NCBI GenBank assembly: GCA_022825745.1
Contig: JAJDWF010000118.1
Span: 1 to 57,432 of the forward strand
DNA: 57,432 bases
DNA from: Dehalococcoidia bacterium
GTDB lineage: Bacteria; Chloroflexota; Dehalococcoidia; Lucifugimonadales; UBA3495
Direction: 5' to 3'
In this document: in pieces, positions 17,182 to 19,634 of the stretch
Numbering within the stretch: position 1 is the first letter of the stretch
How the letters are laid out: every line of letters begins with the position of its first letter
Notes under the pieces: model-generated
The model's input: only the letters and a program-made list of their open reading frames with translations
Told to the model about the DNA's origin: nothing
Database searches by the model: none
Made by a program: the position numbers and the translations under genes

Positions 17182-17736
17182 ATGACTACGCAGATAGCGC
17201 CGGTTTCCGAAGTGGGGCGAGTTACCTATCTGGACCCAACGGGGTTTGTTCACCAGGTGGAACGGCAATTGACGCCACGGCTGGATTCCGTAGCCGGCAA
17301 GGTTGCCGGGTTAATGGACAACGGCAACGACACGTCCAGCTACTTTTTCAACAGCCTGGCGGAGACGCTGGAGCGGGATTACGGCGTGGCAAAGGTGGTC
17401 CTGCGCACCAAGTTCACCTCCACGCGGCCGGCGGAATCCGCGCTGATTGATGAAATCGAGCAGGAAGCCGACTTTCTGATTGCCGGCGTGGCGCTTTGAG
17501 GGTCCTGCACGTCGGGCAGTATGCTCGACGCGGTGAACTTTGAGGACCGCGGCAAGCCGGCGGCGGTGGTTACAACCAGCAATTTCGTCAGGCTGGCCGG
17601 TTCGCTCGCCCGCGCCAATCACCTGGAAGAGTTGCCGCTGGTGACCATACCGCACCCTTTGGGCGACCCTCAGGCGGCGGCAAACCGAGCACGAGAGGTG
17701 GCGGCACAGGTGGTAGCGGCGGTAACGTCGGGATAA
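17182..17736 (+). CDS. UGSC-motif selenoprotein; TGA codon 106 read as selenocysteine
   Basis: Reading from the ATG at 17182 (GAGG seven bases upstream), 105 codons lead to an in-frame TGA at 17497-17499. It is followed without a frame change by GSCTSGSMLDAVNFEDRGKP and 78 codons in all, to a TAA at 17734-17736, giving 184 residues. The residues around the TGA read VAL-U-GSCT, the defining motif of the UGSC family, in which U is selenocysteine in some members and cysteine in others. A perfect-stem hairpin starts 10 bases after the TGA, as expected for a bacterial SECIS. A standard gene caller would call only residues 1-105. A redox or nucleophilic role for Sec106 with the nearby Cys109 is inferred; the reaction is unknown. 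The 17744 gene follows after 7 bp. Confidence 0.88.
17510..17530 (+). promoter_or_regulatory. Bacterial SECIS-like stem-loop after the Sec codon
   Basis: CGTCGGGC-AGTAT-GCTCGACG folds as an 8-bp stem (one G-U pair) with a 5-base loop. The loop begins 18 bases after the TGA and has G as its second base. Both fit the known bacterial SECIS rules: about 16-37 bases from the UGA to the loop, and a G among the first two loop bases. Confidence 0.7.
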
Positions 17737-17743
17737 GCGACCG

Positions 17744-18841
17744 ATGCTTAACCGGGAACAAGCTACCCGCCTGACCGGCCTGGATACCGTTCAGGGCGCG
17801 CTGGACACCATCGAGACCTATTTCGAGAACGGCTGGACGGACGGGCTGCCCATCGTTCCGCCTACCGAAGCCGCCGTGGCTGACTTCGTGGCGGCGTCCG
17901 GACGCGACGGTTCGGAAGTGCTGGGCCTGATGCCGCCGCGCATGGGCGTGGTGACGGTTGAGGCCGCCGCCACCAACGCGGTGATGGCGGGTTGCCGTCC
18001 CGAATACATGCCGGTGGTGCTGGCGGCGCTGGACGCGGCCCTGGACCCCCGGTTCGACATCCGAGGCTTGCAGGCTACCAGCGACCCGGCCGCGCCGCTG
18101 GTGATCGTCAGCGGCCCGGTGGTGGAGCAGGTCGGGATCAACCACGGCGTCGGACTGTTCGGACACGGCAGCCGGGCCAACGCCACCATCGGGCGCGCGC
18201 TGCGGCTGATGATGATCAACCTGGGCGACGGCCGGCCGGACACCGGCGACAAGTCAACGCTGGGCTCGCCGTCCAAGTATTCCTACTGCATCGGCGCGGA
18301 CGTTGCTTCGCCCTGGACGCCGATTCACACCGATTTCGGGTACGACGCCGACGAGAGTTGCGTTACGGTGTTCGCGGCGGACGCGCCCCGGGGCAACAAC
18401 CCGGGCGGCTCCGGCAGCATGGAATTCGCGCTATGGATTCTGGCTGACTCGCTGCGGAACCTGAACCACAACATGATCCACGGCGGGCACATGCTGGCGG
18501 TACTCAGCCCGCTGATCGCCCAGGGGTTGGCCGAAGAGGGCTGGACGAAGCGAGACGTGCAACTGTACCTCTACGAAAAGGGACGTATCCCGATTGAACG
18601 AGTGCGCCGGTACAAAGACCTGCGCTACGGGCGCAACGTGGAAGCGGGCGAGCCCTACTTCTGGCCCAAATGGCTCGACGCGGAGGACCCCACCGAACCT
18701 AACCCCAGGCTCCCCGTAGTCCGCGACCCCGACAACATAATGATCGTGGTGGCCGGCGACCCGGCTCGCTCCCGCTCCGCCTACTGCCCGCCGCGCCCCT
18801 ACAACCCACCGGTGACCAAGCCGGTGCGGATGCCGGAGTAG
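17744..18841 (+). CDS. Conserved protein of unknown function, partner of the UGSC selenoprotein
   Basis: A 365-residue soluble protein beginning seven bases after the UGSC stop, so the two are almost certainly cotranscribed and possibly translationally coupled. Notable segments are ENGWTDGLPIVPPTEAAV near residue 30, PPRMGVVTVEAAATNAVMAG near 66, INHGVGLFGHGSRANATIGR, SYCIGADVASPWTPIHTDFG and a proline-rich C-terminus. There is no signal peptide, transmembrane helix or nucleotide-binding loop. Several isolated Cys (VMAGC, SYC, DESC) and His residues could be catalytic. I cannot name a family. Its immediate position suggests it forms a complex with, or supplies substrate to, the selenoprotein. 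Confidence 0.8.
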   Translation: MLNREQATRLTGLDTVQGALDTIETYFENGWTDGLPIVPPTEAAVADFVAASGRDGSEVLGLMPPRMGVVTVEAAATNAVMAGCRPEYMPVVLAALDAALDPRFDIRGLQATSDPAAPLVIVSGPVVEQVGINHGVGLFGHGSRANATIGRALRLMMINLGDGRPDTGDKSTLGSPSKYSYCIGADVASPWTPIHTDFGYDADESCVTVFAADAPRGNNPGGSGSMEFALWILADSLRNLNHNMIHGGHMLAVLSPLIAQGLAEEGWTKRDVQLYLYEKGRIPIERVRRYKDLRYGRNVEAGEPYFWPKWLDAEDPTEPNPRLPVVRDPDNIMIVVAGDPARSRSAYCPPRPYNPPVTKPVRMPE

Positions 18842-18911
18842 TGCATCAACTGTCCATGTGCTACGATTTTGTATCCACATGCACAGGCTAAGTGACCAAC
18901 AGAGGCAAACC

Positions 18912-19187
18912 ATGACCACCAAATCAACGCGCAAACTGCCGGAACCGCCGGAGATTGTCCTTACGCCGCTGGCCGTCGTGAGCGACAAGAACCAACTTAC
19001 CGTTTCGGAAGGCGTTTTTGACGAGTTTCCGGACGCTGATTGCTTTGAGGTCACTATCGAGGACGGGCGGATAGTGCTGACGCCTTACCCTATCGTGACC
19101 GCCGATGACGTGCGCCTCAAGATAGCAGCTCTTGGTATCACTGAGGCAGACGTGGCTGAGGCTATCAGATGGGCGCGAGGACAATAA
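18912..19187 (+). CDS. Antitoxin of a type II toxin-antitoxin pair (AbrB/SpoVT-like)
   Basis: A 91-residue protein. Residues 20-60 (LAVVSDKNQLTVSEGVFDEF, then FEVTIEDGRIVLTPYP) resemble a swapped-hairpin AbrB/MazE DNA-binding fold, with a helical tail that would bind the toxin. The ATG at 18912 has AGAGG six bases upstream. The stop codon directly abuts the start of the PIN-domain gene, the usual antitoxin-first order. Such antitoxins normally repress their own promoter as the TA complex. The assignment rests on fold resemblance and pairing, not on a diagnostic motif. Confidence 0.75.
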   Translation: MTTKSTRKLPEPPEIVLTPLAVVSDKNQLTVSEGVFDEFPDADCFEVTIEDGRIVLTPYPIVTADDVRLKIAALGITEADVAEAIRWARGQ

Positions 19188-19634
19188 ATGCCGTTGTTGC
19201 GCGTTGTCCTTGATACCAATGTGCTCGTGTCTGCATTGGTGTTTCGCTCTCCATCCGTCGCGTGGTTGCTCTCTGCGTGGCAGTCTCTGATGTTTATCCC
19301 TCTAGCGAGCCAGATTACGATGGCAGAGTTGGAACGTGTGTTGCGTCACCCGAAGTTCAACCTGTTTCGTGCGCAAGCGGAAGCGCTGATCGAAGACTAC
19401 CGTCCTTGGTGCGAGATGGTCACCATTACCGAACCGCCGGATGTACCAGAATGCCGCGACCCCAGAGATCGGATGTTCCTGGAGTTGGCAGCAGCCGGAC
19501 AGGCCGATGCTTTGGTCACCGGGGACGGCGACTTGCTGGCTTTGGCGCCGGCGTTTGCCGTGCCTATTATCACGCCAACCGAGCTGACGGCGCGACTGGA
19601 ATATGACCGATTGGAAACCGATGACAATCGATAA
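19188..19634 (+). CDS. PIN-domain toxin (putative ribonuclease)
   Basis: A 148-residue PIN protein of the VapC/COG1569 type. The acidic active-site residues are seen in VVLDTNVLVSAL (Asp9), in the glutamate of MAELERVL, in PRDRMFLELAA and in DALVTGDGDLLAL, giving the expected D-E-D-D set. PIN toxins are Mg-dependent endoribonucleases that stop translation when free of antitoxin. The ATG follows the antitoxin stop with no gap. The C-terminus lies nine bases before the deacetylase gene, whose message may be read through. Confidence 0.88.
   Translation: MPLLRVVLDTNVLVSALVFRSPSVAWLLSAWQSLMFIPLASQITMAELERVLRHPKFNLFRAQAEALIEDYRPWCEMVTITEPPDVPECRDPRDRMFLELAAAGQADALVTGDGDLLALAPAFAVPIITPTELTARLEYDRLETDDNR

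Follow-up and report, generated by a model that had tools for sequence, protein, structure and literature searches.

A UGSC-family gene with an in-frame TGA codon most likely decoded as selenocysteine, one of nine copies accompanied by a partner gene in a Dehalococcoidia genome

The window analysed here, a stretch of 57,432 nucleotides from a Dehalococcoidia bacterium, contains a gene of the UGSC family which carries a TGA codon in frame. This codon is almost certainly decoded as selenocysteine, and the intact gene, read through the TGA and taken together with its partner gene (Table 1), probably represents one of nine likely separate selenium-dependent enzymes of this organism. The presence of a partner at every copy, the homology to the selenoprotein GrdB and the number of nine copies lead to a testable hypothesis, namely that the two proteins form one complex and that each complex acts on one substrate.

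Table 1. Coordinates of the features of the UGSC locus in the window.
Feature	Position	Strand	Description
UGSC-family gene	17182..17736	+	184 residues with TGA as selenocysteine; ATG at 17182, TAA at 17734-17736
In-frame TGA, near-certain selenocysteine codon, residue 106	17497..17499	+	From the sequence and its read-through translation; Cys in sense-codon homologues
GSCT codons (remainder of the U-G-S-C-T motif)	17500..17511	+	From the read-through translation
Predicted SECIS-type hairpin	17510..17530	+	8-bp stem, 17510-17517 with 17523-17530; loop AGUAU at 17518-17522; 8 of 8 pairs formed
Partner gene	17744..18841	+	Product of 365 residues that matches no Pfam or NCBIfam family

A standard ORF listing ends the gene at the TGA. 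The preliminary description of this DNA had proposed that the two segments are a single gene with normal codon use downstream of the TGA, coding for one protein of 184 residues with the motif U-GSCT exactly at this codon, and all parts of this proposal were borne out. The joined protein, with GSCT directly after U106, matched the Pfam family PF24696 with 136.6 bits (gathering threshold 25), its residues 16-182 covering positions 2-171 of the 172 positions of the profile. Each half also matched the family alone, the first at positions 2-91 with 51.6 bits and the second at positions 94-171 with 66.0 bits. Because these ranges are consecutive, the segment behind the TGA belongs to the same protein and cannot be an unrelated fragment. 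The GC content at third codon positions was 0.73 before and 0.76 after the TGA, with values of 0.85 for the partner gene and 0.88 for a UvrB-like gene. The NCBIfam equivalog model NF041046 (UGSC_fam) scored the window protein with 104.3 bits, which is below its cut-off of 125 bits, and an annotation relying on that cut-off would therefore leave the protein unnamed; five of the nine UGSC paralogues of the genome passed it.

The database entries of close relatives are affected in the same way. A protein search found 229 close homologues, and the 120 listed among them all end exactly one residue before the selenocysteine site, so that these entries cover just the first half of the protein. A wider profile search of the protein database found 873 proteins, of which 120 were listed and 118 of those were new. 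Of these 118, 99 are short, and every one of the 99 ends in IAD, the residues preceding the selenocysteine site. Judging from the DNA of related loci, the short database proteins apparently end at a TGA. The suspicion that genes of this organism may be widely mis-annotated holds for the UGSC family, as seen in the 120 listed close homologues. The preliminary description had also named Cys or selenocysteine as the residues to look for at position 106 of homologues, and Cys was found there in all 19 listed sense-codon proteins of at least 130 residues, 18 with the motif CGSC and one (P0258) with CGAC. One further database protein (P0122, 637 residues) looks like a tandem pair of partner domains.

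The TGA is followed by a SECIS-type hairpin with compensatory base changes, as judged by comparing 120 sites with a TGA, taken from the nine paralogues and from related loci. Scored against dinucleotide shuffles, the 48 bases from the TGA onwards gave a mean folding z-score of -1.51 versus -0.23 in a control stretch 90 bases further on (n = 120); folding of single copies was unimpressive, with z-scores from 0.44 to -2.2 among the nine paralogues. In the 117 distinct sites, the apical loop lies at a fixed distance of 18 nt past the TGA. The five inner pairs of the stem are formed in 95, 90, 89, 98 and 100% of these sites and show 42, 0, 14, 12 and 2 changes on both sides, respectively, and the outer three pairs are formed in just 54-57%. 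A G occurs within the first two loop positions at 113 of the 117 sites, and the loop of L040 is without this usual G. Over all eight pairs, 79.7% of the cells were paired, where 500 shuffles gave a maximum of 72.3% and eight slid versions of the pairing a maximum of 53%, and changes on both sides totalled 77, compared to at most 42 in the shuffles and 21-62 in the slid versions (62 at slide -6); because the hairpin was named after folding the same, related sequences, these shuffle figures are not probabilities. In a subset of 19 sites sharing less than 75% with one another, pairing was seen in 72.4% of the cells, with 16 changes on both sides. The inner stem with its five pairs is weaker in three Cys-type genes, which retain only 3, 3 and 2 of them.

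The components for decoding UGA as selenocysteine were all detected in the same assembly (92% complete), in agreement with the earlier claim that the organism uses selenocysteine. The genes selA, selB and selD scored 553, 369.5 and 378 bits, respectively, the last with an internal in-frame TGA, and a tRNA-Sec with UCA anticodon scored 66.4 bits (gathering threshold 47). In 14 control genomes, scores above cut-off were obtained once for selA, twice each for selB and selD and five times for tRNA-Sec; because the tRNA-Sec family passes its cut-off in 5 of the 14 controls, this hit rests also on the independent agreement of ARAGORN. Across the order, UGSC proteins were found in 156 of 247 genomes (588 matches), and each of the 150 listed matches of these 588 contains exactly one TGA. 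The selA gene is present in all 84 UGSC-bearing genomes with a completeness of at least 90%, and the 18 of 156 UGSC-bearing genomes in which it was undetected are all less than 90% complete. The selD gene itself (L001, 1501-2424) carries its TGA near the start (HCAG-TGA-AAKLS), and its product is likely a selenoprotein.

Searching the genome with PF24696 returned nine places, all scoring above the cut-off and each with exactly one TGA. Their motifs are UGSCSSC, UGSCTAW, UGSCSAC, UGGCSSG, UGSCTAC (twice), UGSCTSG, UGSCVAR and UGGCTSW. When the genome was searched with a profile of the partner protein, exactly nine places were found, and they are the same nine. At the eight UGSC copies outside the window, the partner homologue is adjacent in six cases, separated from UGSC in L036 by one predicted gene roughly 0.7 kb long, and fused to UGSC in a single frame of 614 residues in L040. 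The partner comes first at six of the nine places and UGSC at two, the remaining one being the fusion; this variation argues against simple inherited gene order. Fusions of the two families occur in both orders. The distances between UGSC paralogues correlate with those between their cognate partners (r = 0.63 for nine pairs, two of the nine partners being cut by contig ends), a value reached by 58 of 20,000 random pairings. A Pfam search with the partners yielded one chance-level match in one of the nine members, and Cys84 is invariant in the partner alignment; Asn146 and Arg151 also belong to the conserved positions of the partner.

The same association was found beyond this genome. In the order, 154 of 247 genomes contain both families, two only UGSC (G200 and G231) and one only the partner (G116), and among 132 comparable genomes, 108 have as many copies of the one family as of the other. 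One relative has at least thirteen UGSC copies. We also examined the best 80 of 584 partner loci, which derive from Chloroflexota, Rokubacteria, Methylomirabilota, Betaproteobacteria and others. UGSC was present within the fetched flanks at 69 of these 80 loci and was not found in them at 11, and all 85 UGSC matches at these loci had a partner match on the same strand. Among the 85, the selenocysteine site is TGA in 80, Cys in three, neither in one and cut off in one. The case with neither residue is a UGSC-like gene beside a partner (L102, 2008-2523; motif GEGGNPT), which is perhaps a non-catalytic paralogue. L096, L107, L143, L144, L148, L149, L151 and L158 contain a further subtype of UGSC, which has the motif UGSCTPAV(L/V), scores low against the main profile and in several of these loci lies near a UGSC gene of the first type and a partner.

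A structure model of the window protein (pLDDT 91.7) predicts an alternating alpha/beta domain in which Sec106 is placed after the third strand and before a helix. Its solved structural neighbours are many unrelated Rossmann- or flavodoxin-like domains, and none of these matches names a function. Thioredoxin-like selenoproteins share the UxxC motif with UGSC but appear to differ from it in the predicted strand order and in the listed PDB neighbours.

In its C-terminal half, UGSC is most likely remotely homologous to the selenocysteine domain found in protein B of glycine/sarcosine/betaine reductase (GrdB, GrdF and GrdH; PF07355, TIGR01918) and in the D-proline reductase protein PrdB. NCBIfam models of protein B matched five of the nine paralogues weakly (E-values up to 0.1, best 5.4e-5). 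The window protein reached 17.9 bits with TIGR01918 (cut-off 65.45), aligning to the C-terminal positions 335-413 only, and gave no match with PF07355. For a direct comparison, twelve loci of the GrdB family from the same order (L164-L175) were used. The profile of UGSC residues 95-184 matched that of the GrdB selenocysteine domain with an E-value of 5.5e-6 and a probability of 86%, and with the twelve motif columns masked still with 3.7e-5 and 71%, compared to E-values of 0.11 or worse for controls with five column-shuffled profiles and unrelated ones. In all twelve GrdB-family loci, the PF07355 match ends one codon before an in-frame TGA, after which the protein continues for about 75 residues starting with UGTSTRSG; the PF07355 model thus appears to stop at the selenocysteine site, and both Cys of the motif are replaced by Ser in these loci. 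According to the excerpts of a 2026 review used here (PMC13188914), GrdB has the motif UxxCxxC and interacts with GrdA; four of the nine UGSC paralogues show the same UxxCxxC motif.

UGSC was also considered as a member of the GrdB family, and this assignment was rejected: the large N-terminal part is missing (full GrdB has about 430 residues), the scores are far below the cut-off, and GrdA and GrdE were undetected, with no match for either in the own genome (92% complete) and the 13 listed genomes of the same genus. The GrdB profile gave no match with the partner either. Order-wide, GrdA occurs in 19 and GrdE in 23 of 247 genomes. No PF07355 match was obtained in the own genome at 1e-10. Twelve of the 13 listed same-genus genomes each match PF07355 once and weakly, over the C-terminal part of the profile (E-values from 1.8e-11 to 6.7e-14; e.g., G142:C68:2139-2564), located in an open frame of about 160-200 residues which is perhaps PrdB-like. 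In five genomes of relatives (G079, G091, G110, G128 and G236), a single GrdA match holding a TGA stands beside PF07355 matches numbering five to eight and at least six matches of GrdE, which represents a multi-substrate reductase set beyond the usual clostridia. The occurrence of several GrdB and GrdE copies per genome in some relatives resembles that of the multicopy UGSC genes.

In GrdB, a partner chain holds the substrate on which the selenocysteine acts. A similar division of labour may apply to the UGSC pairs. SelB and tRNA-Sec would insert selenocysteine at the UGA marked by the hairpin, and Sec106, at the N-terminus of a helix in the predicted alpha/beta domain, would serve as the catalytic nucleophile, as in protein B of glycine, sarcosine or proline reductase. 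Cys109, where present, may help to resolve the selenium adduct. UGSC would thus supply the selenolate, and the partner would bind and activate the substrate and set the specificity. Because neither GrdA nor GrdE was detected in the genome, turnover would use a different electron donor or the thiols of the partner, with the invariant Cys84 as a candidate. L140, L156 and L132 (in its first copy) have Ser instead of the second Cys of the motif and all keep U or C at the first position; together with the UGTS motif in the GrdB relatives, this favours a selenocysteine nucleophile over an obligatory dithiol-type cycle of the UxxC motif. The genes around the UGSC loci code for luciferase-like monooxygenases, short-chain dehydrogenases (SDR), Rieske oxygenases, MR/MLE enzymes, TctC receptors and family III CoA transferases, and suggest a role in small-molecule catabolism with a different substrate for each of the nine pairs. 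Because the neighbours differ among the nine loci, no single pathway can be named.

It is unlikely, though still worth weighing, that the pair works instead as a general thiol-disulfide oxidoreductase of the thioredoxin type which protects or reduces proteins, rather than as a substrate-specific catabolic enzyme. The UxxC motif would fit such an activity, and the authors of the GOS survey expected a thioredoxin-like fold, according to the excerpts of that paper (PMC2398784), whereas the predicted fold (pLDDT 91.7) has the selenocysteine after strand 3 of an alternating alpha/beta domain and apparently does not follow the thioredoxin order. The replacement of the second Cys by Ser in L140, L156 and the first L132 copy, with U or C kept, and the homology to GrdB also argue against an oxidoreductase of this type, and substrate specificity agrees better with an expansion to nine pairs that differ from each other and lie next to catabolic genes. 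As a tentative extension of the main reading, that of nine separate selenium-dependent enzymes, and one which we regard as possible rather than probable, the pairs may constitute a new class of two-protein selenoenzymes that operate independently of GrdA and GrdE, each combining a free-standing selenocysteine domain of the GrdB type with an unrelated subunit for substrate binding, and that have been duplicated here into nine pairs with individual substrates. If true, this Chloroflexota lineage would possess a selenium-based catabolic toolkit.

A further reading assumes that both products matter, the 105-residue form being produced under selenium shortage and the full selenoprotein when selenium is available. 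Bacterial UGA decoding competes with release, and of the five predicted strands, three lie within the first 105 residues. We consider a physiological role of the short form very unlikely, because it would lack the proposed catalytic residue as well as two of the strands and three helices from the predicted domain, and because selection is about equal on both gene parts. Compared with the nearest relatives of the window copy that have the same TGA (L084, L085 and L086, from Chloroflexota or Chloroflexi), dN/dS values were 0.19, 0.11 and 0.16 before the TGA and 0.10, 0.14 and 0.16 after it (dS being near saturation for L085 and L086), and purifying selection acts on the gene downstream of the TGA as it does upstream. 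With dN/dS of 0.10-0.16 downstream and the same TGA in the same motif in nine diverged paralogues, in all 150 matches listed for the order and in 80 of the 85 found across several phyla, there is practically no room for the view that the gene is a decaying pseudogene and its TGA the result of a nonsense mutation or of faulty sequencing or assembly, as the stop in the standard ORF listing might suggest. An equally negligible chance is left to a genome-wide change of the code, with TGA standing for an ordinary amino acid such as tryptophan, which would likewise leave the frame open: because TGA is the terminal stop of two housekeeping-like genes in the window, which we take to be YebC-like and RuvA-like, it is not reassigned wholesale, and tRNA-Sec (UCA), selA, selB and selD are present and the homologues carry Cys, not Trp.

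UGSC has been known as a selenoprotein family since at least 2008, when the GOS survey described 255 selenocysteine and 21 Cys forms as well as a fusion with a conserved domain named 'Unknown_1', according to the excerpts used here (PMC2398784). Excerpts of later work list 33 UGSC selenoproteins from 26 organisms in the table of a 2016 bacterial survey (PMC5029168), attribute 8.2% of selenoprotein genes to UGSC in a 2021 survey, and place it among the families with largely uncharacterised functions in a 2026 review (PMC13188914), even though, as far as these excerpts go, it belongs to the commonest selenoprotein families in aquatic metagenomes. The window protein shares the U-GSC motif with its Cys forms, the length and a match over the whole domain with the family as described in these excerpts (PF24696; PMC2398784), and differs from it by the nine paralogues, the partner at every copy and the predicted fold, which is apparently not thioredoxin-like. 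The partner rule, the nine-copy expansion and the link to GrdB were not found in the excerpts of the UGSC literature covered (PMC2398784, PMC5029168, PMC13188914, PMC9312934, PMC7539508 and PMC5330540). A literature search on SAR202 together with selenoprotein, or on selenocysteine together with Chloroflexota and sponge, likewise found nothing.

Directly downstream of the partner gene, at positions 18858-19634 of the window, an ORF of 109 residues is followed by a gene for a PIN-domain toxin (PF13470), in an arrangement resembling a toxin-antitoxin system.
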